Shown here piece by piece: positions 6,963 through 28,930 of a stretch of 38,008 bases of DNA. Position 1 is the first letter of the stretch; every line of letters begins with the position of its first letter. Under the pieces are notes generated by a model, which saw nothing but the letters and a program-made list of their open reading frames with translations, was not told the origin of the DNA and did no database searches. The DNA comes from Acidobacteriota bacterium (GTDB taxonomy: Bacteria > Acidobacteriota > Terriglobia > Terriglobales > Acidobacteriaceae). The stretch lies in NCBI GenBank assembly GCA_021790655.1, contig JAJYGR010000250.1:1-38008 (forward strand), given 5' to 3'. A program made the translations under genes and the position numbers.

Positions 6963-6989
6963 AAAACCCCTCTCGCGTACACTGAGGGC

Positions 6990-9230: not shown

Positions 9231-9319
9231 TACAAACTTTCGTACGGTTCCCTGACCTCCCCACATCTGGCAGCGTCCGTGCTAACCTACTGCACGGTAC
9301 ATCCCCACATTGTTTCCGG

Positions 9320-11311
9320 TTGTTGTCCGTCGTTTCGCAGCACCAGTCTATGCCATCGAGACCTCAGCACCGTTTGCCGGACCGTCTTCTCACCGCTGTG
9401 GCCATATCCTTCTTGCTGTGCGCCAGTGTGGGTCTTTTGACGGACTGGGTGCCCTACGAGGACCTGACACACTGGACCTACGACTTTCTGGTCAACCATG
9501 GCAGATATGGCAAACCCTCTTCGGATTTGGTGCTGGTCGACTTCGACGATGCCACTTTCAACAGGATTCAGCGCTATCCCATTCCGCGCGCCGACTTCGC
9601 CAGGGTGGTGCAGGCGGTTGGCGAAGCGAGGCCAAAACTGATTGGAGTGGACATTTTTCTTTCCGAACCGCGCTCGCCGCAATCCGATGCCGCGATGCAG
9701 CAGGCCCTTGCCGCCGCAGGGAATGTCGTTCTGGCCAGCCAGGCCGGAGTGGGGCAACTGCCGCCGGTGTTGCCGTTGCCCCTGTTCTGCAAGCCGGAGG
9801 CGACAGGTTTTGCCTCGGGCTTTTGTTCCGATCAGCAGCCAGGCGCGTACGGTTACGCATTTATCAATATGCCGATCGACAGCGATGGCTTCATCCGCCA
9901 GATGGAACTCTTCGTGGGGACGCCCAAGCCCGCGGTGTCGTTTCCGGTGATGCTTGCCGAGGAGTTTACTGGCAAGGCGATCCGTCCGTTAGATGCACAC
10001 CACGCCTTCTTCAATGGACACGCCATTCCCTACGCCGACACGCTGCACAAGACAGTGCTGATCGGCCACTGGAGCCCGGAACCGGTGCGTCGAATCTCTG
10101 CCTGGTCTGTATTGACCGGCCAGGTGCCACCGGATGTATTCCGCGACAAACTGGTGTTGATCGGTCAGGGGAGCGATGCCGCCCGCGACCGGCACTTTAC
10201 GCCGATATTCCGTGTGCGCCAACCGGATGGCAAACGTGAACGATTGAGTGGAACGGAAATCCACGCTGCCGCTATCCAGACCCTGCTCAATGGCGATGCG
10301 ATTGCCGTCACGCCGACGATCTGGATGTGGCTGGTAAACCTGCTGGTGGTTGGCCCGTTTGCATATTGCATCATGCGCTTGCGGCTGCGCAGCGGCTTCA
10401 TCGTTACTTTCGGAACCATGTGGGCCATCTACATTGCGGCGCAGATGGCGTTTACATTCGGCAGACTTTGGTTTCCCTATCTGACGACAGAACTTGCCGT
10501 TGCCGCGGCGTTGCCTGCCGGGGTGGCCTATCAATACGTCCGCGAGCAGTTGTTGCATTCCGAGACACGCAAGCAGCAGGAAGAGTTGATGGGATTGTTC
10601 TCTCGCTACGTCGATCCTGAAGTGGCCCATACCATTTGGTTGCGGCGAAATGAATTGAGTCTGGCTGGAGAAGAACGCGTCGCGACCGTGCTGTTCACCG
10701 ACATTCGCAGCTTTACCGCGCTCACCGCAGGCAAACCGTCGCAGACGGTCCTGCGCTGGCTGAATTATTACTTCACAGAGATGGATGACATCGTTCGCGC
10801 CCATGGTGGGTTCCTGAATAAATTCATCGGGGATGGTCTTCTGGTGGTTTTTGGCATCCCGCTGTCGCAAGGCCGTGAGCGGGACGCCATCCAGGCTGTC
10901 CGTACCGCGCTGGCCATGCTCGCCAGCCTGGAGGAGATGAACCGACAACACGCCGGACAGGAGGATTTCCCGGAGATCCACATTGGCATCGGTATTCACA
11001 CCGGCACTCTGACTTGCGGCAGTGTCGGCTCGGCAAAGCGGCTGGAGTATTCCGTCATCGGCGAGACAGTCAACCTCGCCTCGAGGCTGGAGGCTCTCAC
11101 CAAGGACTATCCAGCAGAAATCATCCTGACGGAAAGCACCTATGAACTGGTCCGGAGTACTTACCCCGAAATACACTCCCTCGGCATGGCCAAGGTTCGC
11201 GGATTTGAAGGGCCGGTTGCAATCTACACTGTAAACTCGAAAACGGCAAAGGAACCTGTCAGCGGCACATCGCCGCCCCGTGCCGCCACCAACTCTGGAG
11301 TAGGAACATGA
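9320..11311 (+). CDS. CHASE2-domain class III adenylate/guanylate cyclase
   Basis: 663 aa; N-terminal CHASE2 (LVLVDFDDATF...PKLIGVDIFLSEPR), TM helices, cyclase domain with FTDIRSFT, NKFIGDGLLVVFG, EYSVIGETVNLASRLE. Start may be 9350. Confidence 0.93.
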   Translation: MLSVVSQHQSMPSRPQHRLPDRLLTAVAISFLLCASVGLLTDWVPYEDLTHWTYDFLVNHGRYGKPSSDLVLVDFDDATFNRIQRYPIPRADFARVVQAVGEARPKLIGVDIFLSEPRSPQSDAAMQQALAAAGNVVLASQAGVGQLPPVLPLPLFCKPEATGFASGFCSDQQPGAYGYAFINMPIDSDGFIRQMELFVGTPKPAVSFPVMLAEEFTGKAIRPLDAHHAFFNGHAIPYADTLHKTVLIGHWSPEPVRRISAWSVLTGQVPPDVFRDKLVLIGQGSDAARDRHFTPIFRVRQPDGKRERLSGTEIHAAAIQTLLNGDAIAVTPTIWMWLVNLLVVGPFAYCIMRLRLRSGFIVTFGTMWAIYIAAQMAFTFGRLWFPYLTTELAVAAALPAGVAYQYVREQLLHSETRKQQEELMGLFSRYVDPEVAHTIWLRRNELSLAGEERVATVLFTDIRSFTALTAGKPSQTVLRWLNYYFTEMDDIVRAHGGFLNKFIGDGLLVVFGIPLSQGRERDAIQAVRTALAMLASLEEMNRQHAGQEDFPEIHIGIGIHTGTLTCGSVGSAKRLEYSVIGETVNLASRLEALTKDYPAEIILTESTYELVRSTYPEIHSLGMAKVRGFEGPVAIYTVNSKTAKEPVSGTSPPRAATNSGVGT

Positions 11312-12042
11312 GACGATTTGCACCGATCTTCGGCTGTGCGCTGACCATTGCTTCTCTCGGTCTGTCGGCACAAAACACGCAACCCGCGCCGCAGCAAAAC
11401 ATACAACAGCAAAAGACCGCTGCCAGCAGGCCCAGGCGTGTACATGCCAAACTCGATGGCTTTGAGCTTGCTTCGGGCGCGGCGCCGGCCAACCAGATTG
11501 GCGGCGCATCGCGTGGCTTCGGCGGCGTGACACTCTACGCGCCGCGCAAGGCGCTGGTCTACACATTGCACCCGGTCTTCTACTGGGGCGGCATAACATC
11601 GAACACGCGCTATGTTTTCCGCCTGATGGATATGCGCGATGAAACCATCTTCCAGACTGAAGTCACCGGCGATTCCCTTGCCTACCCCGCAAGCGCTCCC
11701 ACGCTGATTCCTGGCAAAACGTATTCCTGGACAGTGCAACCCAGATTGGACATGCTGGGTGGCCCAGCGCCTCCAGCGATGATCGTTATCGCCGATGCGT
11801 CCAAACGGCAGCAGATCGCCGATGCCATCGCACAGACACAAGGTGCAGACTTGGGGGCCGCGTTGAAGCGCGCCCAGATCTTCACGGATGATCGCCTGTG
11901 GTATGACGCCATCGACGCCTACACACAATTGATCCGGCAGTATCCGGACCAGAAGCAGTTGTATGACAAACGCGGGACGATCTACGCGCAGATACCGGCC
12001 ACGCAGAAACTCGCCGACGCTGACTTTGAGAAGGCGAGTTGA
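11308..12042 (+). CDS. Secreted DUF928-like protein with short TPR-like tail
   Basis: 244 aa; signal peptide; HPVFYWGGITSNTRYVFRLMD...ETIFQTEVTGDSLAYP...LIPGKTYSWTVQP; 4-bp overlap with the cyclase gene. Confidence 0.55.
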   Translation: MRRFAPIFGCALTIASLGLSAQNTQPAPQQNIQQQKTAASRPRRVHAKLDGFELASGAAPANQIGGASRGFGGVTLYAPRKALVYTLHPVFYWGGITSNTRYVFRLMDMRDETIFQTEVTGDSLAYPASAPTLIPGKTYSWTVQPRLDMLGGPAPPAMIVIADASKRQQIADAIAQTQGADLGAALKRAQIFTDDRLWYDAIDAYTQLIRQYPDQKQLYDKRGTIYAQIPATQKLADADFEKAS

Positions 12043-12174: not shown

Positions 12175-12781
12175 AGCCGATCAACAGAACGCAAAAGATA
12201 AGAACCGCACCCACCAGACTGAACATGGCCGTATGTAGTCGGTCGGATTTGATCTGCCGAATCAGGGAGACCATCAGCACCTCCTCGCACATGGAGGACA
12301 GCAGATCCTCATCGCCAGACTGTTTCAACGCCGCGAAGTAGGAATCGTGCGATTCGCTCAGGATATCGACATCAACGGTGTTGCGGAGCGTGTGCAGCAG
12401 CCAATGACCACGCTTGTTGTGGCCAATAAAAAATCTAGGACCGTGAGCTGCATGCGCTCCACCATCTCCAGGCACGGAAGGCTTTGTCGAATGCGGCTTA
12501 ATGGTCGGAAAGATGACTCGAAGACAAACCAGCAGCGTCCAGATCACTGAGAGCATGAACACGATGAACAGGACCTGGTGGGCTTGGTCGCGCATCCGGG
12601 CAACGTGGCCGCTTTGCAGCGCCGCCGCCACCATTCCCGAGAGCAGCGTCACGCAAAAAGCCGCCTTGGTGTCGATAAAGCGGATCGTGTTCTGCGTGTC
12701 CTCCACGATCTTGTAGAGGAATTCAAGATGACTGGAATACTTGGGTTGTGCAACACGCGTTGCCAGATCGCTATCTTGCAT
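12173..12781 (-). CDS. Small membrane protein resembling Pycsar effector PycTM (DUF5706)
   Basis: 202 aa; YKIVEDTQNTIRFIDTKAAFCVTLLSGMVAAAL (FxDTKA motif then TM), second TM, soluble linker, EEVLMVSLIRQIKSDRLHTAMFSLVGAVLIFCVLLIG third TM. Confidence 0.7.
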   Translation of the reverse strand: MQDSDLATRVAQPKYSSHLEFLYKIVEDTQNTIRFIDTKAAFCVTLLSGMVAAALQSGHVARMRDQAHQVLFIVFMLSVIWTLLVCLRVIFPTIKPHSTKPSVPGDGGAHAAHGPRFFIGHNKRGHWLLHTLRNTVDVDILSESHDSYFAALKQSGDEDLLSSMCEEVLMVSLIRQIKSDRLHTAMFSLVGAVLIFCVLLIG

Positions 12782-12887
12782 GTGGAGGAGTTTAGCAGAG
12801 GCATGGAAAATACGGTTGCCTCCAGGCGCACGAGAAGATACGCTGCATGAGTGTCCCGGCTCTGATCAACCATTTTGCCTTGCGTGC

Positions 12888-15047
12888 ATGACCATAACAT
12901 CTCAAATTCGGTGGCGACGGTGTTCGGCCTGCGTATTGGTCTTGAGTGCCGTGACGGCAACTGCTGCCGCCCAGCAACCGAGTGTAACGGAGACGCGACG
13001 CGACAGCGCCCCTCAGCAACAACTTCCCCAACAAACCCACCGGACAACCGGCGCGCTACAGGGAATAGTGACCGACCCGGAAGGCTCTCCATTGCCCGGC
13101 GTGCAGGTCCGATTGAACCACGCAGACGGAAGCCTTCTTGGAACTGTGCAGACCGCAGGCGACGGAATTTTCCGCGTCCTGCACATTCCACCAGGAGTAT
13201 ACGTTCTGTCGCTGACACCTCCGCCTAGCCTTGCGCCTGCAGGCGGCGCGCCGTCGATCCAACCGGGCGTCCGCTTGAACGCCGGCGAGGTGCTAACGGT
13301 ACAGATAAAGCTGGATGTTGTCCGCTCCTACCGCTCTCCAATCCCGCAGACTCCAACCCAAACCGGCAGTGCGCCGTCCTACAAGGAGTTGAGCCGTCGT
13401 CCGGATGCGGAGGGGGCATTGGTGCCCGCAGCGGAGGCGCAGGTCCCGCCGGATTCGAAGCTATACCAGACCCAAGCGTATCGCTGGGACACCGGCCTGC
13501 CCGATTTCCCCAACTACCACCGCTATGACGCAGCCGCCGAAGCGCCGTATGTACTGGGCCATTGGTATGATCCCTTCAATCGCAACCGTCTTAAGGGTGA
13601 CTATCCGATCTTGGGACAGAAGACTTTCTTCAGCTTCACCGCCGACGCCCTCACAGCCATCGATGGCAGACGCCTGCCCGTTCCCTCCGGCCAATCTGCG
13701 GTGAGGCCGGATTCGTCGCAATTTTTTGGCCGGGGAGGACAGTTCTTTTTGGATGAGACGTTCCGTTTCACCTTCGACCTGTTCCACGGCGATACGGCCG
13801 CTTTCCGTCCCGTTGACTGGCGCATTCGCATCACTCCCGCAGCCGATATCAACTATCTCGCGGCGCGTGAGAATGGTGTTGTCAGCCCGGACGTGCGCGC
13901 CGGAACGACGCGCCTGGATGGATGGGTGGGTCTGCAGGAAGCCTTCGCAGAAGTGAAACTGCACGACTTTGGCCCCGATTACGACTTTATGAATCTGCGG
14001 GCTGGAATTCAGGCCTTCAACAGCGACTTTCGGGCCTTTATCTTCGCCGACGAGCAGCCCGGGGTGCGTCTCTTCGGCAATCTGCGCTCCAACCGCATCC
14101 AGTACAACCTCGCCGGGTTCGATCTGCTGGAGAAGAACACCAACAGCGGTCTGAATACCTTTGACCGGCGCAGCCGCGATGTTGCCGTTGCCAATGTTTT
14201 CATTCAGGACTTTTTCGCCAAAGGCTATACCACTGAGTTCAGCTACGACTTCGCGCGCGACAACGCCACCATCCACTATAACGACAATGGTTTCCTGGTG
14301 CGGCCTGCGCCCATTGGGACCTTTGCGCCGCACCGTGTGGACGCGCATTACTTCGGCTGGACAGGAGACGGCCATATTGGCGTCATCAACGTCGATAATG
14401 CCTTTTACCAGGCTCTGGGAAACGACACGTTGAACCCGCTAGCGGGAAAGCGCGTCGATATCAACGCCCAACTGGCCGCACTGGAGCTTTCTCGCGACCG
14501 CGATTGGCTTCGCTATCGCGTCTCCTTCCTTTATGCCTCCGGCGACAGCAACCCGCGCGACGGCACCGGGCGCGGCTTCAGTTCCATAGTGGATGGGGAG
14601 AGCTTCGCCGGAGGCGAGTTCAGCTTCTTCAATCGCGAAGGCATTCCCCTGACCAGCACCGGAGTGGCCCTGACATCTCCGGACAGCTTTCTTCCAGACC
14701 TGCGCTCCAGCAAGGACGAAGGGCAATCGAATTTCGTAAACCCGGGCATTTATTTATACAATGCGGGCGTCGACGCAAAGCTGACGCCATCGTTGAAAGT
14801 GGTGGGGAATGTGAACTTCATGCAGTTCGCGCGCACCCAGCCGCTCATCTTCCTGCTACAGCAGAATGGGGTGCGCAGGACCATTGGTGTGGACTCGAGC
14901 CTGGGCTTCCTCTATCGTCCTCGTCTGTCGGAAAACATCCAGGTCCTTGGCGGCCTTGCGGTCCTTGCTCCTGGACAGGGACTCCGCGACATTTACACTA
15001 GCCAGACACTGATTTCGGCTTTTGGCACCATTCGGTTTCAGTTTTAG
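12888..15047 (+). CDS. Outer-membrane beta-barrel protein with N-terminal carboxypeptidase-regulatory-like domain
   Basis: Start chosen at 12888 (MTITSQIRWRRCSACVLVLSAVTATAAAQ signal). GALQGIVTDPEGSPLPGVQVRLNHADG...GVYVLSL domain, long beta-strand-rich region, C-terminal aromatic ending FGTIRFQF. Confidence 0.75.
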   Translation: MTITSQIRWRRCSACVLVLSAVTATAAAQQPSVTETRRDSAPQQQLPQQTHRTTGALQGIVTDPEGSPLPGVQVRLNHADGSLLGTVQTAGDGIFRVLHIPPGVYVLSLTPPPSLAPAGGAPSIQPGVRLNAGEVLTVQIKLDVVRSYRSPIPQTPTQTGSAPSYKELSRRPDAEGALVPAAEAQVPPDSKLYQTQAYRWDTGLPDFPNYHRYDAAAEAPYVLGHWYDPFNRNRLKGDYPILGQKTFFSFTADALTAIDGRRLPVPSGQSAVRPDSSQFFGRGGQFFLDETFRFTFDLFHGDTAAFRPVDWRIRITPAADINYLAARENGVVSPDVRAGTTRLDGWVGLQEAFAEVKLHDFGPDYDFMNLRAGIQAFNSDFRAFIFADEQPGVRLFGNLRSNRIQYNLAGFDLLEKNTNSGLNTFDRRSRDVAVANVFIQDFFAKGYTTEFSYDFARDNATIHYNDNGFLVRPAPIGTFAPHRVDAHYFGWTGDGHIGVINVDNAFYQALGNDTLNPLAGKRVDINAQLAALELSRDRDWLRYRVSFLYASGDSNPRDGTGRGFSSIVDGESFAGGEFSFFNREGIPLTSTGVALTSPDSFLPDLRSSKDEGQSNFVNPGIYLYNAGVDAKLTPSLKVVGNVNFMQFARTQPLIFLLQQNGVRRTIGVDSSLGFLYRPRLSENIQVLGGLAVLAPGQGLRDIYTSQTLISAFGTIRFQF

Positions 15048-15106: not shown

Positions 15107-18100
15107 TTGCGTGACCGCTGGACACTTCTGCTGTTGGCGTGTCTGTCGGTCGCGGTACTGTGGAACAGATCGCTTCCCAATGCCGTACATGCGGGGCAGC
15201 GAGCGGCCAACCCTACGATCCAGATGTCTGAGTCGCCGCATCAGGCCCAGCAGGCCAGCGTGGGCTGTATCACCTGCCACACCGGCATCTCCCACGCCAA
15301 CATGCATCAGGAAAACATCGTCATCCTGGGGTGCGCGGACTGTCACGGAGGGAATGCGGCCATCTCCATCGCAGGCGCGAAAGGCTCGCGCGAGTACGCG
15401 GCTGCCGAGAGCAAGGCGCACATCCACTCGCGGCTGGCAGCCGACAACGTGAACGGCGGACACCCCGTCCGCGAATACACGCGCTGGATCGAGGAGAGTT
15501 TCGAGTATGTTCGCTTCGTCAATCCCGGAGATCTGCGCGTAGCTGCTGTCACCTGCGGGGCCTGTCACGGGCAGGAAACGCGCAATGTACGAAGCAGCAT
15601 GATGACCCACGGCGCAATGCTGTGGGAAGCGGCGCTTTATAACAATGGCGCATATCCCTACAAAAACGCCCACTTCGGCGAGTCCTACGATGAGAACGGA
15701 AAGCCGCAGCGCCTGCGCACCTTCCCCCCGCCCACGCCGGAGGAGACCAGGACCAAGGGGGTGCTGCCGTATCTCGATCCACTTCAGCGATGGGAGGTTT
15801 CGCAACCGGGAAATATGTTGCGCGCCTTCGAACGCGGTGGCGAGAAAAAGAGTGAGATCGGCAATCCCAGCCCGGATGAGACCGCCGGGGAGCCGGACAT
15901 AAAACTGAGCGAACGCGGCCTGGGCACCAACCTGCGGACAGACCCGGTCTTTCTGGGATTGCAGAAGACGCGCCTTCTAGACCCTCTGCTATCGTTTCCC
16001 GGGACCAACGACCAGCCCGGCGACTACCGCTCCAGCGGCTGCTCGGGCTGCCATGTGGTGTATGCCAATGACCGTGACCCCATGCACTCAGCCTATGCCG
16101 CCCGATTCGGCAACATGGGTCGTAGTGCCAGCAACGACCCTACGATCGACAAGACTGCGAGTGGTCATCCGATTGTGCATGCCTTCACCAAAGCGATCCC
16201 CTCCAGCCAGTGCATGACTTGCCACATGCACCCGGGAACGAACATGGAGGCCAGCTACTACGGCCTTACCTGGTGGGACAATGAAGTCGATGGCGATGCG
16301 ATGTACCCGAAGAAACAGCACAATCCAAGCCCGCAGCAGTTGCACGATGTACATGCGCGCAACCCGGAGGCCGCGGCACCTCGCGGCCTGTGGTCCAACC
16401 TCGATTTTCTGGAGAAGACAGGCACGCCGGAGTTCAACGCCAAGCTGAAAGATACCCAGTTCGCCGACTTTCACAGCCACGGATGGATCTTCCGCTCCGT
16501 CTACAAACGCGACCGCAAGGGCAGGCTGCTCGACGCGAATGACAAGATCGTTCCGTTCGATGACCCGGACGCCATGGGCAAGGCCGTTCACCTTGCGGAC
16601 ATTCATCTGGAAAAAGGAATGCAGTGCGTCGATTGCCACTTCACCCAGGATGTCCACGGCAATGGCAAACTTTACGGCGAGACCCGCAATGCTGTGGAGA
16701 TCGGCTGCACGGACTGCCATGGGACCATCTACAAGAGGGCCGCGCTGGTGACCACCGGTCCCGCCTCGGCGGGCGACGAATCGAGCGACCTGCTGCGGCT
16801 GCGCACCCCCTTCCAACAGCGGCGCTTTTACTGGCGCGACGGCAGGCTCTATCAACGGTCGAATGTGATCGAAGGCAAGCAGTGGGAGGTGGTGCAGGTG
16901 CTCGACAGCATCACGCCAGGCAATGCGCATTACAGCGAGAAGTCGCGCCTTGCCAAGACATTGCAAAAGGACGGCGTCACCTGGGGGCACACCGAAGCGA
17001 TGCAGAAGCTGGCCCATGCCGACTCACTCATGACCTGCTACAGTTGCCACTCTTCCTGGACCACCTCCTGCTTCGGCTGCCACCTTTCGATGAGTGCCAA
17101 CCAGAAGACGCCCATGCTGCACAACGAGGGCGAGACAACGCGCAACTGGACTTCGTATAACTTCGATGTGCTGCGCGACGACGTGTACATGCTGGGCATC
17201 GATGGAACGGTGACCGGCAACCGGGTGGCGCCGGTGCGTTCCTCCTGCGCGATTGTCGTGAGTTCGCAGAACGTGAACCGCGACTGGATTTATCGAATGC
17301 AGCAGACCGTCTCCGCTCCGGGGTTCAGCGGAGAGGCGTTCAGCACCTACGTTCCGCACACCGTCCGCGCCAGAGAGACCAAGGGCTGCACCGATTGCCA
17401 CGTCTCGCGTCAGGGCGACAACAACGCATGGATGGCGCAGGTCCTGGTCCAGGGCACGAACTTCCTCAACTTCATGGGCAAGTACATCTATGTCGCCGAC
17501 GGCAGCCACGGGTTCGAGGGCGTCTCTATCGCCGAGAGCAGCGACCCGCCAGCGGTGATTGGCAGCGACTTGCAGCAGATGGCCTATCCCGACGACTATA
17601 AGAAATTTTTGCGCAGCGGACGGAAGTTGAAACAGGCATACAGTCACGAAGGCAACTCCGTGCTCGACGTGCAATTGCGCGGCGAATATCTTTACGCCGC
17701 CATGGGCAAAGGCGGCTTCCGAATCTTCGATGTCGCGGCCATCGACATCAAAGACGACTCCCAGCGGATAAAGACCGCTCCTGTTTCGCCGCTGGGGCAG
17801 CGCCTGTATGTTAAGACGAAATACGCCACTGCCGTCGCTTCGCCGTCCACGCTAGCGCTCGACCCCGCGCGCACGCAGTTGCCGGAAAACGAGGAACAAA
17901 AAATCGCGCCGCTGTACGCTTTCCTGTATGTGACGGACAAGTACGAGGGGCTGGTCGTCATCGGCGACCCGAAGACCGGCGTTGCGACCCTGCTCGATGG
18001 CAACCCGCGCAACAATTTCCTGAAGCGCGCGCTCGCCTTCAACCCCGGCGGCAAACTCAACGGAGCGCGCCGCATCACCATCGCCGGGACCTATGCCTAT

Positions 18101-18829
18101 ATCCTGTGCGACCGGGGGATGGAAGTGGTGGATCTGGCAAACCCGCTCGATCCCAAGATCACCGCGGAGATTGGAGCGCCCAACATTGTCGATGGACGCG
18201 GCGTCGCCGTGCAGTTCCGCTATGCGTTTGTGGTGGACCGCGAGGGGCTGAAGGTCTTCGATGTCACACATCTCGACAGGCCGGTCCGCGTGGGCGGCAC
18301 AGTCCCCTTTGCCGATGCGCGCAATGTATATGTGGCGCGCACCTATGCCTACATCTCCGCTGGCGCGCAGGGCGTTGCCATCGTCGATGTCGAGCGGCCC
18401 GAGAAGCCCCGGCTCTACAAGATGTTCAATGCCAATGGAGAGATGAACGATGTGAACGACATCAAGATCGGCATGGTCAACTCCAGCCAGTTCGCCTTTG
18501 TGGCGGACGGCAGGAACGGAATGCGCGTGGTGCAGTTGTTCTCGCCCAAGTCGCAGGCCGGTTTTTACGGATTCAGCCCCGAGCCGGTGCCGAGGCTGAT
18601 TGCGACCCGCAGGACGAGCGGCCCCGCGCTGGCAATCTCGAAAGGCATTGACCGCGACCGCGCTGTGGATGAAAGCGGCAATCAGCTTTCAGTCTTTGGC
18701 AGGCGCGGCGCCCGGCCCTTCAACGGCGAAGAAATGCGCCGCATGTACCTCCGCGCGGGCAAGCTGTACACCGTCACCGACACTCCTCCCGGTCCGGCGA
18801 CAGACACAAAAACTATCGCTTCGAAGTAA
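15107..18829 (+). CDS. Multiheme cytochrome c (10 CXXCH) with C-terminal LVIVD-type/beta-propeller region
   Basis: 1240 aa; CITCH, CADCH, CGACH, CSGCH, CMTCH, CVDCH, CTDCH, CYSCH, CFGCH, CTDCH; C-terminal repeats such as [67 protein letters not shown] start at 15107 uncertain; a CTG at 15077 follows AGGGAGG. Confidence 0.88.
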
Positions 18830-20396
18830 GTTCATCGAGGGTAAAGACGCGGTGCGGCTGGCCCTCGACCGCCATGGCCGCCTGCGTCCAGCCATGATAC
18901 TGGTGGCAGAGGAAGCATCCGCTCTCCGCGTGCCCCGTGGACACCGGCGGCCCCTGAGGACGAGTGGCCCCATCGTGGCAGCGCTGGCATACGGCGATGC
19001 TCGGCAGCAACATATCCTTCCCTGTGGTGCTGGAAAGAGCGTTCGCATGGCACTGGGCGCACTGTACCTCCTGGTGCGCATCATGGCGAAAAACAGAGTC
19101 TGCAAACCAGCGTTGCGGCTGTTGGGTAGGAGCGACGACGGGCAACGCCGCTTGGTCCGCAGCAGAGATGGAAGCTGGCGCGGAAACCTCCAGCGAGGCA
19201 TTCCGCAGCACTGCTCTGGAAGAGATGGATGCAATTTCGCCGCCGGTAATCTGGTGGCATAGAGAGCACTTTCCGCGCCACAAAAGGCGATCCGCATGCG
19301 CGACTCTCGCTGCGATCCATTCCTGTGGAGTGTGTGGGGCGGGCCATGGCATCCGACCCGCGATATCGCTCATGCCCTGCCAATTCTTGATTTCATTCGC
19401 GACCACCTGTGGATGCGTCACCGCGTAGCTGGCGATTTCAGCTACGACAAACTTCTGCACCGTTGCCGGATCGGCGTGCGGCGCTTCCGCGGAGATGTGG
19501 GAATCGAACCTCAGCGTGTGACAGGCGCGGCAGGTCTGCTGATAGCTCGCAGGCTTCATGTACGCGCCGCCGGCATGAACATCTGGACGGGCGCTTTGAG
19601 CGACGCGGACCATCCGCGCACTCGCAGCCAAACTGCTCACTGCGCCTGTAGCTTGCGTCCCCTCGAACTCAGTGTCCTTCATCTGCGGCGTAGATTCAGG
19701 CGCTCCCTGGAACCGCCATACCACGCTCGACGCGTCATTTGGGGTGCGATGACAATCTGAGCACCGCATGTCTACCTTGCCGCGAGGGCCGGACAGTCCG
19801 GATTTCATGTGCTCGGCGTGATTGAATCTCAGACTGAACGCGGCCTCACGGGAGGCATCGCCAATGCCTTGCAAAGGGCGGAAATCCGGGTGCCCGTTCA
19901 CGAACGAGTGAATGCCACTCGGCACAGATAAGCTGCCGGAACGGACCTTCAGGTCGGCATGGCACTGGGTGCATGTGACGTCCGCGACGGAAGCCAGGCG
20001 CATGGAACCCTGGTGTTCGATATGGCACGATCCGCACTTCGGCGTGAAAGCGACCCTCGCCGGATGGTGCGCCGGAGCCGCATGACAATTCAGGCACGCT
20101 GAGTCGGGAACTCGCTTGCTGGATCCAAACACTGGCAACCAACCAGCGCCAGCAATCACCGGCTGATGGCAGGCCACGCACTTCTGGCCGAAGACGGCAT
20201 GCGCGGAAGACATCGGCCCGGCGGAGAACATGCGGTCGCCGTGGCGCAGGACGGAGACGCCCAGCCACAGCACCGCCGCGCACACCGCGGCCAGGGTAAG
20301 CCACCACTGCCATAGGCGTACGGGCGAGCCTTTCTTGAAGTAGTCGAGGTCGTGCCGCTTGGCGACGGACTTGGTGGTTCGGTTGCGAATCGCCAT
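18813..20396 (-). CDS. Multiheme cytochrome c (10 CXXCH), membrane-anchored at N-terminus
   Basis: 527 aa; N-terminal TM then CVACH, CLNCH, CGSCH, CTQCH, CSDCH, CRACH, CSLCH, CAQCH, CQRCH, CFLCH. Confidence 0.88.
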
Positions 20397-20471: not shown

Positions 20472-21347
20472 TCAATACCGCAACGCGACGATCGCGTGGA
20501 TGCACCCCAACAGAATCAGCGCGGCGGATAGCGGCAGATGGCACCACAGCCAGCCGTGCAGAACGCGATGCAGGCGTGCCTGATGGTCGAGTTGCCGCTT
20601 CTCCTCGCAGATCTCCTCGATGGCCGTGATAGGTTTCCACGCCGCCTCCGGAAACACCTCGCGCAACTTCTCAAACCGTTCCGAAGACCAGTCGCGGTCC
20701 CTGAGCGCGACTTTGCCCTGCTCATGCCCGAGATAGCCACGCACTTCCGCGGCAAAGAATTCCTCAAACTCGGCGATCTCTTTCTGTAGTTCGGGGACCG
20801 TGATCATGGTGAGCACGACCGTCGCTCCAGCACCGGTGCCCGGCGCGAGACTCTGCTTCACGTTTTCCGCGTTCAAGTCCGCCTCCGCAACCAACTGCTG
20901 GCGAATGACGCCAATCTGGTCGTAGATGGTCTCGAAGCGCACCTCGCGAAACATTTTGGATGGCAGTGTGTGCTGGATCCAGGCGCCAATCAGGCCGCTC
21001 GCCACCACAAGAACCGTCAGCCACATCAGGATGCCGGTCAGCAACCCCCGGGCATGGAATGCGGAGTGGAACAGCACCATGGGCAAAGCGAGAAAGCCCA
21101 GCCACAGGTGGGCGCGCATCCATATTTTCGCCCGTCCGATGCGCCAAATCGGAAAGCGCTTCCTGACGCTGAGAAGGGCGGCGAAGATCATCAGACCCAG
21201 CGCCAGGACGCCGAACATCAGGCCGACGGCAGTTCCGCCTCCAGGCACAGCCACGCGCAAGGAATAGGGGACGTACACCGCAATCGAAACAAGAATGACG
21301 CCGACGGCGAGCAACATCCAGGGCTGGTGGGTATGGTCGATTCGCAT
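20472..21347 (-). CDS. Multi-TM b-type-cytochrome-like membrane protein
   Basis: ATG at 21347 (MRIDHTHQPWMLLAVGVILVSIAVYV). Histidines in TM contexts: RAHLWLGFLALPMVLFHSAFH and LHRVLHGWLWCHLPLSAALILLGCIH. Confidence 0.65.
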   Translation of the reverse strand: MRIDHTHQPWMLLAVGVILVSIAVYVPYSLRVAVPGGGTAVGLMFGVLALGLMIFAALLSVRKRFPIWRIGRAKIWMRAHLWLGFLALPMVLFHSAFHARGLLTGILMWLTVLVVASGLIGAWIQHTLPSKMFREVRFETIYDQIGVIRQQLVAEADLNAENVKQSLAPGTGAGATVVLTMITVPELQKEIAEFEEFFAAEVRGYLGHEQGKVALRDRDWSSERFEKLREVFPEAAWKPITAIEEICEEKRQLDHQARLHRVLHGWLWCHLPLSAALILLGCIHAIVALRY

Positions 21348-21351
21348 TTGT

Positions 21352-23583
21352 CTATCGCCCTTTGCCCACTTGATCCAATAGGTTGTCGCCCAGCAGGCTG
21401 GCAAAAAATTCATTGGGCTTGACGCGGTGCGCCGCATCGTGTGGGCAGGCATAAACACAACTCGGCTCGGAGAGGTCATGGCATAAATCGCAGGAGGTCG
21501 CCTTGCGAACTTTTTTCGTGACGGAGGCCTTCTTGTCGAGCACGACATTCTGCTCCGGCGACGACTTCAATTCCTTGTCGAACTCATGGACCGTGATGTT
21601 GCCGTATGGACAGTTGGTTGCGCACAGCCCGCAGCCTACGCACCAGTCTTCGATGATGACTTCTAGTGAATTCCGGCGGCGGATCGAACCTACCGGACAG
21701 CCGACCATGCACAACGGGTCGCGGCATTGACGGCATGAAGTTGCCACCAGATAGTTCTCGAAGCGAACACCATCGCGCAACAGCCGCGTGACCCCGTCAT
21801 GCGCGTCCGCGCAGGCCTTTACGCATTGGTCGCATCGCGTGCATTTCTCCAGGTCGAGTATGAGCAGGCTCTGCGCATCCATAAGACCCTGCGTCAGGAA
21901 CTGGTGGAGCGGAGCGCTCTGTGTCCTTTCCGCCGTGCGCTGGGTCAGCAGCGTGTTTTCGCGCGCCCGCTGGCGAGCCGCCGTTTCGATTGCATGGCGC
22001 ACATCCGGAAAACGGTCCAGCATCTCATGGAAGTCCGGCGCCTGAATACGGACCACCTCGACATGATCGAGAGCGGTGCAGGTGGCGGTGCGCACACCAC
22101 CCTCCAGCAGTCCCATTTCGCCGAAGTAGCCGCCGCGCGGCAGGTAGGCCAGCACCAGCTCCTCGGTACCGCGACCCTGGCTCACTTTCACAAAACCGAT
22201 GCGGATCAGGAAGAACGAGTCCGCCACCGCGCCCTGCTCGCAGATGATCTGCCCCGGTGCGAAACGTATCAACTCCACACGGTCGCGCAACAGGTCGATA
22301 AAATCCTCGCTGATGTTAGAAAAGATGGGTACGCTGCGCAGATGCGTGCCCAGAGCGCGGCCGCGATAGTTGGCCTCAAGCTGCGCGCGAAACGTCTTGT
22401 TCTTTTGCATCACGTCGAGGACGTTGCGCAGCATCTCCAGCATGACGCAGTCCGTGCTGGCGCGCACGGTCGCCGAGCGCGGGTAGAAATTCATGCATGT
22501 CATCTCGCCGAACAGATCGCCGGCCCCCAGTTGGGCTATCGGATTTCCGTAAGGCAGATCGACCGGAGCATCGATGCGTATGTGTGTCGGCGCGTCGCAT
22601 GCTTCTTCCCGCGTGTCCTTGACTTTTGGACGCAGCAGGCTGCGCATGCGGGAGAAGACGCCGGGGTCCCCAGCCGCCTCGGTGGAAACGTGTGCGCGGG
22701 GCGACTCCAGCAGGATGTCCACCGTGCCTTCCAGGATGTAGAACGCTGTGGAACCATTTTCTCCCTCTCTGACGATGACCTCGCCAGCCTTGTACTTGCG
22801 CTTGACCACGGCCCCCTGGTTCAGTTCCAGAAATGTGCCGGAGACTCCCTTGAAGACGGGAAGCGCGAGCAGTTCCTCAGTCTCGACTTTGTAGCTATTC
22901 CCGCCAACCTGCGAGTGCAGGTCCTGGCCAAGTACGCGTTTGTTGGTGAGAGCGCCGGTGGGACAGGAGACCATGCATTCTCCACAGGAGACGCAACTGG
23001 AATTGCCCATTGGCTCATTGGCGTCGAACGCGATGGTGGTGAAATACCCCTTGCCCTGGCGGGCGATCACATAGTTGTGCCGTATCTCCGAGCAGCCCCG
23101 GATGCAGCGGTCGCACAGGATACAGGCCGAGTAGTCCACGTGGATACTGGGCGAGGAATCGTCCGCCGCGAGCACGGGAACTGCGCGCTTCTTGAAGCGG
23201 ACTTCTTTGACCCCAACTGCCGCGGCCTGCGTTTCGAGTTCACAGTCTCCGCTGGCCTGTTGTCGCATGCAAGGCGAAGGATGGTCGGAGAGCATCAGTT
23301 CGTAGAGTGTCTTTCGCACCGCTGCAATCGATTCCGTATTGGTCTTGACGGCCATGCCCGGCTCGGCCTTGAAGATGCATGCTGCCTGTAGCGCGCGCTC
23401 GCCGACATCGACCACGCAAATGCGGCACACAGCGATCGGCGCCTGGTTTTGCTGGTGGCACAGGGTGGGAATGGGAACTCCCGCCGCGACCGCCGCGTCG
23501 AAGACCGTGGTCCCATGTGGCACGGTCACTTCCATGCCATCCACGGTGAGCGTCATCATTCCATCCGCGCTGTGTTCGCTCAT
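21352..23583 (-). CDS. Fe-S oxidoreductase: NuoG/HoxU-like N-terminus, two cyclic-nucleotide-binding domains, DmsB/HybA-like ferredoxin C-terminus
   Basis: 743 aa; CHQQNQAPIAVCRICVVDV, CILCDRCIRGC, CVSCGECMVSC; CNB1 GDLFGEMTCMNFYPRSATVRA; CNB2 GGYFGEMGLLEGGVRTATCTA; C-terminal CTRCDQCVKAC, CRQCRDPLCMVGC, CVGCGLCATNC, CDLCHDLSEPSCVYAC. Confidence 0.9.
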   Translation of the reverse strand: MSEHSADGMMTLTVDGMEVTVPHGTTVFDAAVAAGVPIPTLCHQQNQAPIAVCRICVVDVGERALQAACIFKAEPGMAVKTNTESIAAVRKTLYELMLSDHPSPCMRQQASGDCELETQAAAVGVKEVRFKKRAVPVLAADDSSPSIHVDYSACILCDRCIRGCSEIRHNYVIARQGKGYFTTIAFDANEPMGNSSCVSCGECMVSCPTGALTNKRVLGQDLHSQVGGNSYKVETEELLALPVFKGVSGTFLELNQGAVVKRKYKAGEVIVREGENGSTAFYILEGTVDILLESPRAHVSTEAAGDPGVFSRMRSLLRPKVKDTREEACDAPTHIRIDAPVDLPYGNPIAQLGAGDLFGEMTCMNFYPRSATVRASTDCVMLEMLRNVLDVMQKNKTFRAQLEANYRGRALGTHLRSVPIFSNISEDFIDLLRDRVELIRFAPGQIICEQGAVADSFFLIRIGFVKVSQGRGTEELVLAYLPRGGYFGEMGLLEGGVRTATCTALDHVEVVRIQAPDFHEMLDRFPDVRHAIETAARQRARENTLLTQRTAERTQSAPLHQFLTQGLMDAQSLLILDLEKCTRCDQCVKACADAHDGVTRLLRDGVRFENYLVATSCRQCRDPLCMVGCPVGSIRRRNSLEVIIEDWCVGCGLCATNCPYGNITVHEFDKELKSSPEQNVVLDKKASVTKKVRKATSCDLCHDLSEPSCVYACPHDAAHRVKPNEFFASLLGDNLLDQVGKGR

Positions 23584-25349
23584 GCCGCTCCTCCCTGGAA
23601 ACAGATTCCAGCGCGGCAGCGCCGCTCCTCCAGGTGCTCCCGCATCAGTTCAGGAAAATGCCGGATGATGGACTGAATCGGCGCGGGCGCGATCTGCCCG
23701 AGTCCGCAGATGGAGGTGAGCGTGAGAACGGCGGACAGGTCCTTCAGCGTGGCCATGTCGTCGTTGCCGCCGGTGCCACGAGTCCAGTTCTCAATCAGGT
23801 CCACCAGCTTTTGCGTCCCAATGCGGCAGGGAGAGCACTTGCCGCAAGACTCGTTACGGTAGAACTTCACTGAGGTCAACGCCATGTCCAACATGCATGC
23901 GCGGTCGTCGCAAACCACAATCGCGCCAGAGCCAAGCATGGAACCCAGTTTCTTCACCTTGTCCCAATCGAGCGGTGTGTCCAGCAGGGACGCGGGCAAA
24001 TAACCGGAAGAAGGCCCGCTCGGGGCAAAGCCTATTAGCTCGTGACCATCCACCGCTCCACCTGCGTAATCGGAGATGAGTTCGCGGTAGGTAGTTCCCA
24101 TGGGGACCTCAAACACGCCGGGGTTCTTCACGTGGCCGGTCACGCCCACGAACTTGATGCCGGGCGAGCCTGGCTTGCCCGCATTCCTGTACCACTCGCC
24201 GCCCTTGCCCAGGATTGTTACCGCATACGCGAAGGTCTCCACATTGTTCAGCGCAGTCGGTTTGGCCCAGAGGCCGAAGTTCACTGTACGCGGCGGCTTG
24301 TTGCGCGGCTCTGAGCGATGGCCTTCGATCGCCTCCATCAACGCCGTTTCCTCGCCGCAGATGTAACCGCCGGGGCTGACGAAGACCTCCATGTCGAAGT
24401 TCAAGCCGGAGCCTTGAATGTTCTTGCCAAGCAGACCCAGCGATCGGATACGGGACAGCTCCTCCTCCAGCACGTCGGTCTGGCGTTCATACTCGTGTCG
24501 GATGTAGAGATAGCCCTTATGTGCACCCACAATCGCCGCGGCGATCATCATCCCTTCGAAAACCATGTGCGGCAGGTATTGCAGGATGAAACGGTCTTTG
24601 ATTGTGCCGGGCTCGCTTTCGTCCGCGTTGCAGACCACGAACTTCTCAGCGCTGGGCGTCTTCTTGCAGCCTTCCCACTTGATGTAAGTGGGAAAGCCGG
24701 CCCCTCCCATACCGCGCAGCTCGGCTGCCTTCAGCAACTGTAGCGACTCGTCGAAATTCTTCTCCGCGATCAACCTGCGGAAGATCGAGTAGTGCTCTTC
24801 CTCCGTTTTGTACGGGTCGCACTGGATCTCGATGCCGCGCTCCTCTGGGCTGCGGGGCGGGTGGCTGTGCGGATGCGTTGGCACCGTCCCGCCACGCGTG
24901 TTCACCATCTCGCGGTCCACCAGGCGGACTACCTCGGCGAAGCCGATGTTGTCGTAGTAGCGGTCGTTGATGGTGACCACCGGAGCATGATCGCAGCGGC
25001 CTACGCAGGAGATGTCGCGCACGCGCACAATGTCGGAGGCTCCAGCATATTGCCGCTCAAGCGATTCCCGAAGCTGGCGCGCCTGGTACAGATGACAGGT
25101 CATGTCGTCGCACACCCGCACATCCACCGGCGCAGGCGGCTTGACGTGGAAATGGGGATAGAAGCTGGCGACCGCGTGGACGTCCTTGATAGAGACAGCA
25201 CGCCTCTTCGCGATCAGCTCAATTTCGCGCGTCGGCAGATAGCCGTAGCTGTCCTGTACCCTGCGCAAGTCCTCGAAAACACCCAGGGTGCCATGCTCGG
25301 GGTCATGATATGGCACGACCTTCGCTGCAATTTCGTTTGGAATCGCCAT
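23580..25349 (-). CDS. NuoE-NuoF fusion (NADH-binding diaphorase subunit, HoxF-like)
   Basis: Start 25349 (MAIPNEIAAKVV). NuoE 2Fe-2S CDDMTCHLYQ...CVGRCDHAP; NuoF LRGMGGAGFPTYIKW, CNADESEPGTIKDR, SPGGYICGEETALMEAIEG, ESCGKCSPCRIG. ATGA overlap with downstream gene. Confidence 0.93.
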   Translation of the reverse strand: MAIPNEIAAKVVPYHDPEHGTLGVFEDLRRVQDSYGYLPTREIELIAKRRAVSIKDVHAVASFYPHFHVKPPAPVDVRVCDDMTCHLYQARQLRESLERQYAGASDIVRVRDISCVGRCDHAPVVTINDRYYDNIGFAEVVRLVDREMVNTRGGTVPTHPHSHPPRSPEERGIEIQCDPYKTEEEHYSIFRRLIAEKNFDESLQLLKAAELRGMGGAGFPTYIKWEGCKKTPSAEKFVVCNADESEPGTIKDRFILQYLPHMVFEGMMIAAAIVGAHKGYLYIRHEYERQTDVLEEELSRIRSLGLLGKNIQGSGLNFDMEVFVSPGGYICGEETALMEAIEGHRSEPRNKPPRTVNFGLWAKPTALNNVETFAYAVTILGKGGEWYRNAGKPGSPGIKFVGVTGHVKNPGVFEVPMGTTYRELISDYAGGAVDGHELIGFAPSGPSSGYLPASLLDTPLDWDKVKKLGSMLGSGAIVVCDDRACMLDMALTSVKFYRNESCGKCSPCRIGTQKLVDLIENWTRGTGGNDDMATLKDLSAVLTLTSICGLGQIAPAPIQSIIRHFPELMREHLEERRCRAGICFQGGAA

Positions 25350-25558
25350 CAATGGATCGCAAACCTCGGTTGCACACACGTTCGTTTGCGGCCAGCATAA
25401 CGACGGCGCAGCAACTTGGCAACCATTTTCATTGGGAGGGAAAACCTGGGCAAAACATTCGTTGCAATTCCCACCATCGCCCGGTATAAAACTGGAAAGT
25501 AAAATTTGTTCATTTTAGACCTTGCAAGTGTACACTCCACGTTGCATTCGGGAAAACA

Positions 25559-27001
25559 ATGGTTCCAGCCTTGACATGCTTTTTGCGCCGCCCTGGCAGA
25601 CGCTACAGAATCGCCTTCGCGCTGTTCGCGGCAACCTCTCCGGCATTTCTTGTAGCTATTACTGGCGCTGGCGCGCTGGCCCAGAGCGCAACCTCTTGGG
25701 GAAAACAAGGCACACATGTCCATCCTCTGCTTAGAACATCTACCCCCGGCGAGAGGAAGCCGGAAAGAATGACTTACGTCGGTCCCGGAGGCTGTAGCGC
25801 CGTCGCCTGCCACGGCGGCATCCAGCCGCGCAGCGTCACCAAAGTGCTGCAAAACGAGTACAGCACCTGGATCACCCAGGACAAGCACGCGCGGGCCTAC
25901 ACTGTGCTGACCGGTCCGCTGGCCACGCAGATGGCGGCAACGCTGAAGATTGGACCTGCGCAGAATGCCGCAAAGTGTCTGGTCTGCCATGCCATCCACG
26001 TGGATGCCGCCGACCGGTCGCGCAGTTTCGAGATCGCCGACGGCGTCAGTTGCGAGAGCTGCCACGGGCCTGCATCGCAATGGATCGGGCCGCATATCCA
26101 GCCAGACGCGAAGTATGCCGATATGGTCTCGCTCGGGCTGGTCGACAATAAAAGCTTGACCGCGCGCGCGGAGAAGTGCCTGACCTGCCACCTGGGAGCG
26201 CCGGGCATGTCGGTCGACCATGAGATGATTGCGGCCGGCCATCCTGACCTGACCTTTGAACTGGACTCCTTCACCGCCGTCGAGCCGCCACACTGGATCG
26301 AAAAGGCGCCCAACCAGATGGCCCCGCTCAATGACCCCTTCTTCGGCGTTCGCGCATGGGGCATCGGCGAGGCAGTTCAATTGCGCGAGAGCATGTTGCG
26401 CGTGGCGCGGCGCGCGCATGATGGACCATGGCCGGAGTTCAGCGAGATGGACTGCGTCACTTGCCACCATTCACTCACCGGGCCGCAAAGCTGGCGGCAG
26501 CAAACTGGCTACGTGGGTCATCTCCCCGGAGATCCTCCTTACAATCTTGCACGGTACATCATCTTCCGCCCTCTCGGCGATCAAGCGGACGCTCCCCTGG
26601 AGAAGCGGCTGGATGTGGAAGTGACTCGCGTCTCGACGCTGATCACTACCATGAGTCCAGACCGCGCCGCAGTGGAGGAGGCGGCCAACCGGGCCGCAGC
26701 CACGGCTGACGAAATGGTCGCCAAGGTGCGGGCCGTGCATTACGACCGCGTTCTGACGGCGCAGTTGATGAAGTCCATCGCATCCGACGCGGACCTGATA
26801 TCCCGAGAGGGCGAGCGTACGGCGGAGCAAGCCACCATGACGCTGAACTCCCTGTACATTGCCTCGGCAAAGGACGGAGCCGCGAACACTGCAACCCGGT
26901 CCGCGCTGGATGCGCTGTTCCAGCAGGTAAGCAATCCTTCCGCCTACAATGGGCCCCAGTTCGCCGCGCAGATGAAAGCAGTGAGCGCCACGCTGCCATA
27001 G
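25559..27001 (+). CDS. Cytochrome c554-like multiheme protein
   Basis: 480 aa; signal sequence; CSAVACH (CX4CH), CLVCH, CESCH, CLTCH, CVTCH; YVGPGGCSAVACHGGIQPRS resembles the c554/c-prime family. Confidence 0.8.
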   Translation: MVPALTCFLRRPGRRYRIAFALFAATSPAFLVAITGAGALAQSATSWGKQGTHVHPLLRTSTPGERKPERMTYVGPGGCSAVACHGGIQPRSVTKVLQNEYSTWITQDKHARAYTVLTGPLATQMAATLKIGPAQNAAKCLVCHAIHVDAADRSRSFEIADGVSCESCHGPASQWIGPHIQPDAKYADMVSLGLVDNKSLTARAEKCLTCHLGAPGMSVDHEMIAAGHPDLTFELDSFTAVEPPHWIEKAPNQMAPLNDPFFGVRAWGIGEAVQLRESMLRVARRAHDGPWPEFSEMDCVTCHHSLTGPQSWRQQTGYVGHLPGDPPYNLARYIIFRPLGDQADAPLEKRLDVEVTRVSTLITTMSPDRAAVEEAANRAAATADEMVAKVRAVHYDRVLTAQLMKSIASDADLISREGERTAEQATMTLNSLYIASAKDGAANTATRSALDALFQQVSNPSAYNGPQFAAQMKAVSATLP

Positions 27002-27048: not shown

Positions 27049-28590
27049 CTAATCCGTCGGATTGCGCGGAAATTTCTGGTAGGGCAGGCGAACGTTGCGG
27101 ATGAATATCTGATCGGCGCGGATGGCGAGCGGCGCGTAAAAGCCGACAGCGCCTCCCGCTGCGGCATAGTCGTCTTGATCGACGCCATCGCCAGAGACGC
27201 CAAGGCCACCCACCAGCTTTCCATTCAAATAAAGCGGCAGCGATCCCGGAAAGAAGACAACTCCGTTCTGGTTCGCCGAAACGGGTTGCGAGCCCTGAGT
27301 GCAAGGGTTGGCCAGATCGTTCAGAAAGAGTGGGAAGAACGGACCGGGCTGGGTGCCGTTGATGCCCTCTGGATAAAGGGGCTGCGCCCCGAAGCCCACG
27401 GTCCGATTGGTGACGGCTGTTCCCGCAGGAACACCCGGCAGATCGTTACCGGGATTGCCACTGAAATAGACGACATTGCGCGACTTGGCCACGGCAACAT
27501 CCACGCTGAACACGGTCGCATCCGGCATCCGGTAGAGCGCCAGCAAGCTCCCATCCAAGTCGGCCACCGCGATGACAAAGCGTGCGCGCACACCCACTGG
27601 CAGGCGAATCGCGGCGCGAGTCAAGTTTCCTGTGGCAACGGTATTTTGGACGATCTGCCGCACTTGCGCGAGGGTAAGGCCGCCAGGCTGACCGGCATGT
27701 TCCGCAATCAGATCGCCCTCAGGCGCTGGACCGCTGCCAGCCGTTGGCCCGAAGCTATAGCCGCCGTCGGCGGCGCCCGCGCTCACACCCGGGGGGAGCG
27801 TTGTTTGATTTACAAACGGCAGCGCGACGCCACCCACCACCACAACTCCGGGATATGGGACCACCGGCGCGAATCCGTTGTCCAGCGTGCCCGCCACCGC
27901 TGCATATTCCGTGACCGCGCCGCTATTGGCCAGCGTTGGAGCGGCTGCAACCCCAATGCCTCCGGCGAGCCGTCCATTTTTGAAAATAGGCACGCCCCCC
28001 GGATCGACAGCATTTGGGTTGGAGTCGAACACGTCCGCCTTGCCAGTCTGGATTCCAAGCCCTGGGGCCGCCGAGTGCAGCAGTTGCGGAACGGGCAGAC
28101 TCTGCCCAGGAAGATACGTCGTGTTGAAGCCACAGCCGCGGTTGGTGTTTTCAATTCCGTACAGCGGCGCGGACTCCGAATTGGCCACTCCAGGCGGAAA
28201 ATGAATCCCACTCAAATAGCGGACCGTGCGGCTGCCGATCGGTGCCTGGTCATTGCTGAAGTAGGCGGCGGTCCGGGCCAACGCAGCCGCCACCTCATCC
28301 GCTGGCTGCGCGGTGTCAAAGTTGGCGGTCGCCGTCGCCGGAGCGTTGGCCTTCTGGTAGACGGCCAATATCTGCCCGCGGCGGTCGCTGATCGCGATGA
28401 CGAGCGGGACATTTACCGATGATGCGGCGGCTTTCACGATAGAATCCACGTCGGCCTGCGTCAAAACATTGTCGGCTGTGTTTGGAGTGACGACTGGGAT
28501 CGCGGCCGGGCTGACTCCCCCGCCGCAGGAAGAAAGAAAAATCAAAGCGGACATGATTGCACACGCTGCAATCGAACGCAGGCGCGACAT
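27049..28590 (-). CDS. Lipoprotein with two GlcG/HbpS-like (heme-binding/DUF336) domains
   Basis: Start likely 28590 (MSRLRSIAACAIMSALIFLSSCGGG, lipobox). Two units: LTQADVDSIVKAAASSVNVPLVIAISDRRGQILAVYQK and LTLAQVRQIVQNTV...RFVIAVADLDGSLLALYRMPDATVFSVDVAVAKSRN. Confidence 0.75.
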   Translation of the reverse strand: MSRLRSIAACAIMSALIFLSSCGGGVSPAAIPVVTPNTADNVLTQADVDSIVKAAASSVNVPLVIAISDRRGQILAVYQKANAPATATANFDTAQPADEVAAALARTAAYFSNDQAPIGSRTVRYLSGIHFPPGVANSESAPLYGIENTNRGCGFNTTYLPGQSLPVPQLLHSAAPGLGIQTGKADVFDSNPNAVDPGGVPIFKNGRLAGGIGVAAAPTLANSGAVTEYAAVAGTLDNGFAPVVPYPGVVVVGGVALPFVNQTTLPPGVSAGAADGGYSFGPTAGSGPAPEGDLIAEHAGQPGGLTLAQVRQIVQNTVATGNLTRAAIRLPVGVRARFVIAVADLDGSLLALYRMPDATVFSVDVAVAKSRNVVYFSGNPGNDLPGVPAGTAVTNRTVGFGAQPLYPEGINGTQPGPFFPLFLNDLANPCTQGSQPVSANQNGVVFFPGSLPLYLNGKLVGGLGVSGDGVDQDDYAAAGGAVGFYAPLAIRADQIFIRNVRLPYQKFPRNPTD

Positions 28591-28930
28591 GCCCGCGCGC
28601 GAAGGAACGGCATGCTCGCGAATTTCCCGGTCCCTTGCTGGTTCCATATCGAAATGCATCAGAATTGAGCAGCCAGCAGGGTAACACAAATCCGCGCGGA
28701 ATTGGCGCGTGGCTTGTGATATCGTGGACAATCGTGCATGGAATGTTGCATCCGTATCATATATATATATGGACTTGATCGCGAAGGGTCCCACCGATCA
28801 GTCGCTTCGGGTAACTCGCTTCGCTATTTTATAAGCAAATTTCGACCACTCAGCCCGGGCAGCAGCGGATTCTTCGCCATCGCGCTGACGGACTGTGACA
28901 AAACTTTCATGCATCTTGGACGAGGTTGCG

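Follow-up and report, generated by a model that had tools for sequence, protein, structure and literature searches.

A 743-residue protein encoded in the window (the whole 38,008-nucleotide stretch of Acidobacteriota DNA analysed here) holds a tandem pair of cyclic-nucleotide-binding (CNB) domains between two sets of iron–sulphur clusters, and we favour a post-translational reading, in which electron transfer from NADH to the envelope through this protein is gated by a cyclic nucleotide, probably cAMP. What the analysis establishes is the architecture of this FeS-CNB protein, its conservation, its gene cluster and its association with a nucleotide cyclase. The CNB sensors are intact and a cyclase is a recurrent neighbour, which makes it probable that a second messenger acts on this respiratory branch directly, as a switch, and not via gene expression.

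The FeS-CNB gene (positions 21352..23583, minus strand, ATG start) was characterized by its ORF, Pfam matches, an AlphaFold model and an alignment of 69 full-length sequences from Acidobacteriota and Planctomycetota, the window's included, which share 55–80% identity. From the N to the C terminus, this redox-signalling fusion comprises a 2Fe-2S domain like that of NuoG and formate dehydrogenase, two [4Fe-4S] motifs, the tandem CNB domains and four further [4Fe-4S] motifs, an order that the initial annotation had proposed and that Pfam and the cysteine alignment bear out. The N-terminal [2Fe-2S] domain (residues 9–83; 23335..23559, minus strand) matches Fer2_4 (3.3e-18) and carries the invariant C42, C53, C56 and C69. 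Pfam places NADH-G_4Fe-4S_3 at residues 90–129, and the family alignment, together with alignment to the formate dehydrogenase structure 6tg9, reveals a degenerate NuoG N5-like site (H101, C105, Q108 at a Cys position, and C114; 23242..23283, minus strand), in which the second Cys of the pattern H101-x3-C105-x2-[Q108]-x5-C114 is Q, E or H in 69 of 69 sequences. The site either holds a cluster in which one ligand is not a Cys or has lost its cluster. Loss of the same Cys is common to the formate-dehydrogenase-like proteins L126 and L127 of Acidobacteriota, whose N-termini are 53–56% identical to that of the FeS-CNB protein, and this shared loss suggests that the N-terminal module probably originated from an NAD-dependent formate dehydrogenase.

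The two NuoG/FDH-like [4Fe-4S] motifs (residues 148–213; 22945..23142, minus strand), identified by Pfam and by both alignments, comprise C154, C157, C160 and C164, and C197, C200, C203 and C207. At the other end of the protein, Pfam and the alignment define a HycB/DmsB-like module (C581–C713; 21424..21870, minus strand), with Fer4 matches at residues ~580–717 and four [4Fe-4S] cysteine groups (C581–591, C617–629, C648–658 and C698–713). Each cysteine of the 2Fe-2S and [4Fe-4S] clusters is invariant or present in 68 of the 69 sequences. No HTH family is matched by Pfam in the protein, in agreement with what had been said of it at the outset, and a reading as a CRP/FNR transcription factor is ruled out by the lack of a C-terminal HTH. 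Membership of complex I as NuoG was likewise rejected, as only residues 12–215 match, at 111 bits versus a cut-off of 470; no membrane Nuo subunits occur among the annotated neighbours of the gene. The AlphaFold model has a mean pLDDT of 71.8, with values of ~80–95 over the CNB core, lower values in an insert of CNB1, and values below 50 at residues 134–220, which places the cluster–CNB and cluster–cluster geometry beyond judgement, and we claim no distances.

The cNMP_binding family is matched (1.6e-36) in three stretches. CNB1 (residues ~236–395; 22399..22878, minus strand; Pfam and AF2) is split by an insert of ~50 residues, and CNB2 (residues ~420–545, with the best stretch at 439–524; 21949..22326, minus strand; Pfam) has PKA-R and PKG as relatives. 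The phosphate-binding cassette of CNB1, FGEMTCMNFYPRSATVRA (residues 358–375; 22459..22512, minus strand), includes E360, R369 and S370, each found in 69 of 69 sequences, and that of CNB2, FGEMGLLEGGVRTATCTA (residues 487–504; 22072..22125, minus strand), includes E489, R498 and T499, the Glu and the Arg each being kept in 68 of 69. Judged from the alignment, this conservation of the E/R cassettes lies far beyond chance expectation. In such cassettes, the Glu engages the ribose and the Arg the phosphate (PMC10354285). When compared with the PKA consensus F-G-E-[LIV]-A-L-[LIMV]-x3-[PV]-R, the CNB1 segment FGEMTCMNFYPR differs at three positions (M, T and C) and the CNB2 segment FGEMGLLEGGVR at two (M and G); the Thr-Cys that follows GEM in CNB1 is unusual, PKA having Ala-Leu there. 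We note that each cassette contains a conserved cysteine (C363 in 69/69 and C502 in 67/69), a possible redox-sensitive element of the nucleotide pocket.

The nearest solved structures, both by sequence comparison and by a Foldseek search with the AF2 model, are the tandem CNBs of PKA-R and PKG, an outcome of the AlphaFold modelling and comparison that the initial annotation had suggested; HCN2 and HCN4 domains are among the CNB2 matches. That annotation had also taken the residue after the cassette Arg, Ser in CNB1 versus Thr in CNB2, as a hint to the ligand. However, position 499 varies among the 69 sequences (T in 61, S in 4, M in 3 and V in 1), and the cAMP-binding HCN channels, too, can have Thr in the place after the cassette Arg, so that Ser or Thr is not diagnostic of the ligand and the hint falls away. 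The broader claim of two ligand-competent-looking CNBs stands: both cassettes quoted for it are present, Glu and Arg are kept in at least 68 of 69 sequences, cyclase neighbours recur, and an Arg-less sister clade has FHA-domain partners instead. Taken together, the sequences make it likely that the FeS-CNB protein binds a cyclic nucleotide.

The genes that surround the FeS-CNB gene encode candidate electron donors and acceptors. Immediately upstream, on the same strand and with a 4-base overlap, lies a NuoE-NuoF fusion, an NADH/FMN diaphorase (23580..25379, minus strand; TIGR01959 at 3.7e-129, NuoE matches and Pfam), which contains the motifs RGMGGAGFP, NADE and CGKCSPCR and keeps the N1a/N3 cluster cysteines in 65–67 of 67 sequences. 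Downstream are a membrane b-type cytochrome of 291 residues (20472..21347, minus strand) and a membrane-anchored decahaem c cytochrome with 10 CXXCH motifs (18813..20396, minus strand; annotation and conserved neighbourhood). The cytochrome b has two near-invariant His pairs, H80/H94 and H270/H284, each 14 residues apart, a di-haem b pattern for which two bis-His haems are predicted; it matches no significant named family. A divergently oriented gene encodes a tetrahaem cytochrome c554-type protein (25559..27001, plus strand; annotation and conserved neighbourhood). On the far side are a decahaem ExtM-like cytochrome with LVIVD repeats (15107..18829, plus strand; profile matches and neighbourhood) and a predicted AlgE/OprD-like outer-membrane beta-barrel (12741..15047, plus strand; Foldseek), whose AF2 model, of low to moderate confidence with a mean pLDDT of 57, is weak and supports ‘beta-barrel’ only. 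One genome per species was scanned, which yielded 78 loci, nearly all from Acidobacteriota plus two Planctomycetota genomes; among these loci, the neighbours are cytochrome b (76 loci), decahaem c (73), NuoEF (68), c554 (66), the ExtM-like cytochrome (32) and the barrel (21). A protein with two HbpS-like (haem-degrading) matches, encoded at 27049–28794 and near the operon in 21 of the 78 loci, may have a role in haem or redox sensing.

Among genomes of the same genus as the window's, a CNB-containing relative was found in none of nine searched and a class III cyclase in none of seven checked, and the window segment (G000:C68) was either gained laterally or belongs to a misbinned contig. The genomes compared are mostly metagenome-assembled and the window contig might be misbinned, which leaves the conclusion unaffected because the named strain Granulicella aggregans M8UP14 carries the same gene unit (L016, 77% identical, on a contig of 1.29 Mb). 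Two records titled Rhodanobacteraceae (L009) and Betaproteobacteria (L081) contain genes 77% and 63% identical, in clusters of the Acidobacteriota type; mislabelling of the records or contamination of the bins is the probable cause. One Planctomycetota contig (L067 and L084) carries two input versions of one core: a full-length copy beside NuoEF, and a short one beside cytochrome b, decahaem c and c554.

The putative source of the ligand is a CHASE2-class III nucleotide cyclase (9320..11311, plus strand; Pfam and catalytic motifs), the sole PF00211 protein of the window's genome. It contains the catalytic, metal-binding Asp of FTDI, the adenine-type Lys of NKFIGDG and a Ser at the second base-selecting position. 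These adenine-type residues make cAMP a more likely product than cGMP. The FeS-CNB gene has a class III cyclase within 13 kb in 22 of 40 carrier genomes, versus 0.54 expected, the genomes being related and the counts not independent; a flanking cyclase had already been seen in 14 of the 40, and 8 of the remaining 26 are positive. Of the 18 carrier genomes that have no cyclase within this distance, 6 have one at 65–80 kb and 1 has none at all. Where a genome has a single class III cyclase, it is within 13 kb of the FeS-CNB gene in 11 of 16 cases. In an independent sample of the phylum, three of four full-length carriers (G022, G342 and G179) have one at 7–11 kb, and any class III cyclase at all is found in 5 of 30 genomes of the family or order that are devoid of the FeS-CNB gene, compared with 7 of 7 carriers (Fisher p = 8e-5, the genomes not being independent). 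The six genomes with a cyclase 65–80 kb from the FeS-CNB gene (G427, G428, G434, G438, G440 and G443) show a conserved longer-range linkage.

The nearby cyclases differ in kind, including CHASE2-cyclases of ~640 and ~800 residues and FHA-GAF-cyclases, and they stand on one side of the cluster or the other; the tree shows 9 changes of arrangement, which points to repeated re-association and not to a single inherited layout. In the window, the cyclase is on the side opposite to that in the closest relatives. Simple synteny as the cause of the proximity is weakened by these differences in type and side, by the 9 changes and by the window's own arrangement. A caspase-TPR protein and DUF4384 and DUF928 genes flank the CHASE2 cyclase in the window (6228–12042); DUF928 adjoins the cyclase in L009 and L011–L014, and a caspase-TPR relative does so in L109. 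A Pycsar defence system was considered and rejected: the similarity is limited to generic cyclase and CNB domains, and the protein has iron–sulphur modules and lacks a killing domain of the TIR or TM type.

A sister clade (L120, L121, L123–L125 and L129–L131) retains the core of two CNBs and four clusters and has lost the cassette Arg in both CNBs. Like the FeS-CNB loci, most of its loci have cytochrome b (L121, L123–L125 and L129) and several have decahaem c (L123–L125 and L130). Unlike them, FHA proteins are nearby (L121, L123–L125 and L129), and in L123–L125 NuoEF is replaced by a FAD/NAD(P)H-type flavoprotein that contains FHA and 2Fe-2S domains. The clade shows that the CNB fold can persist in the family without canonical binding; what selection has kept in the clade of the window is the set of binding residues.

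This bears on whether the CNB pair needs a ligand at all. That the domains are ligand-free structural spacers between two cluster modules would agree with a fold that outlives the loss of its Arg, yet we regard it as highly improbable, given that E and R are near-invariant in both CNBs of the window's clade and that, in our sample, the cyclase association is confined to this clade and is not seen in the Arg-less one. A metabolic sensor of another small molecule, a purine nucleoside or some other metabolite, has a precedent, in that the CNBs of trypanosomatid PKA-R have switched ligand, with loss of Arg and a change of Ala to Glu underlying the binding of purine nucleosides (PMC10959531). The sister clade has lost both Arg, and the CNB2s of L123, L124, L125 and L130 combine this loss with Glu at the PKA Ala position. 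However, the window's clade retains both phosphate-binding Arg, which nucleosides would not need, and we hold such a sensor to be very improbable there.

It is also conceivable that the cyclase acts via another receptor, for example one of CRP type, its proximity reflecting shared regulation and the CNBs of the iron–sulphur protein being incidental. The genomes have several CRP/FNR-type CNB proteins; G022 has one further canonical CNB protein (L135), and the ambiguous cassettes of L003 and L148 could bind, the CRP-like L003, with its shifted Arg, being a protein that might still bind cAMP. In three genomes, namely the window's (G000), G342 and G417, by contrast, an unambiguous E+R cassette occurs only in the two CNBs of the FeS-CNB protein, and we consider the other-receptor account improbable; as the window's genome is 88% complete, the absence of other canonical CNBs and cyclases there is provisional. 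These three genomes and G022 have one class III cyclase each, near the FeS-CNB gene, and no class I adenylate cyclase was found in the four. A closer competitor accepts that the CNBs bind a cyclic nucleotide and supposes that the effect is on the assembly, localization or stability of the FeS subunit with NuoEF or cytochrome b, and not on the rate of electron flow. It fits the cassette and cyclase evidence equally, the CNBs lie between separable modules, and short forms devoid of the NuoG-like half keep both the CNBs and the cytochrome partners; still, a covalent place between two cluster modules makes pure recruitment less economical, and we judge it unlikely.

For the preferred reading, direct gating of electron transfer, we infer the formation of a complex, the route and direction of the electrons, the identity of the ligand, and the step and sign of gating. 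The NuoE-NuoF fusion would oxidize NADH and pass electrons into the N-terminal [2Fe-2S]/[4Fe-4S] module, a homologue of the N-terminal part of NAD-dependent formate dehydrogenase and NuoG; they would exit via the C-terminal HycB/DmsB-like four-cluster module to the di-haem membrane cytochrome b, and from there reach the decahaem c cytochrome anchored in the membrane and other cytochromes of the envelope. The simplest route would run from NADH through FMN, the N-terminal clusters, the C-terminal clusters and haem b to decahaem c. The tandem PKA/PKG-like CNB pair would be positioned between the input and output modules. An envelope signal would be sensed by the neighbouring class III cyclase via CHASE2 (FHA-GAF in some lineages), and the cyclic nucleotide made, most likely cAMP, would bind both CNBs and shift their relative orientation, so that either the path taken by the electrons or docking between the two halves is opened or closed.

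Like the alpha chain of FdsA-type NAD-dependent formate dehydrogenase (6tg9), NuoG, HoxU and the N-terminus of group A [FeFe]-hydrogenase, the FeS-CNB protein pairs a 2Fe-2S and [4Fe-4S] module with a NuoE/NuoF diaphorase, its N-terminal module matching 6tg9 at 1.5e-43. Unlike formate dehydrogenase, hydrogenase and NuoG, it has CNBs and four clusters in place of a molybdopterin, hydrogenase or NuoG C-terminal domain, and it is short of one Cys at the N5-like site. The two serial CNBs with E/R cassettes, its best fold matches, resemble those of PKA-R and PKG, but no kinase is present, the CNBs lie between iron–sulphur modules, and CNB1 has an insert and a Thr-Cys cassette. The C-terminal Cys pattern of four [4Fe-4S] clusters, with predicted electron delivery to a membrane partner, is that of HycB, HydN, DmsB and FdhB, whereas here the module is fused to CNBs and the partner is a di-haem b protein. 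CNB domains of similar sequence serve as direct allosteric or targeting domains in the mycobacterial Pat acetyltransferase, the SthK and MloK1 channels, Pycsar effectors and family 2B encapsulin; to our knowledge, none of these contains redox cofactors or belongs to an electron-transfer chain. No description of a CNB–iron–sulphur–NADH protein was found in the open-access literature searched. The parts are known, and what appears to be new is that they are combined into an electron conduit under second-messenger control.

Bacterial cAMP signalling is known mostly via transcription factors. If the gating reading is true, a second messenger would control a respiratory electron-transfer chain within seconds, and in some organisms this chain would be the main cAMP target. 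It is quite possible, though we hold this tentatively, that Acidobacteriota have a dedicated cAMP circuit with a single source and a single receptor: an envelope-sensing class III cyclase would make cAMP, an iron–sulphur protein in place of a CRP-type regulator would be the main receptor of this cAMP, and the messenger would directly switch an NADH-driven conduit to multihaem cytochromes; such a circuit would be the redox equivalent of a cyclic-nucleotide-gated channel. For many soil Acidobacteriota the electron acceptors and their regulation are poorly known, and these bacteria would gain a regulated path, open to experiment, that leads from NADH to multihaem cytochromes of the envelope, the named strain Granulicella aggregans M8UP14, at least, being among those that have the genes for it.
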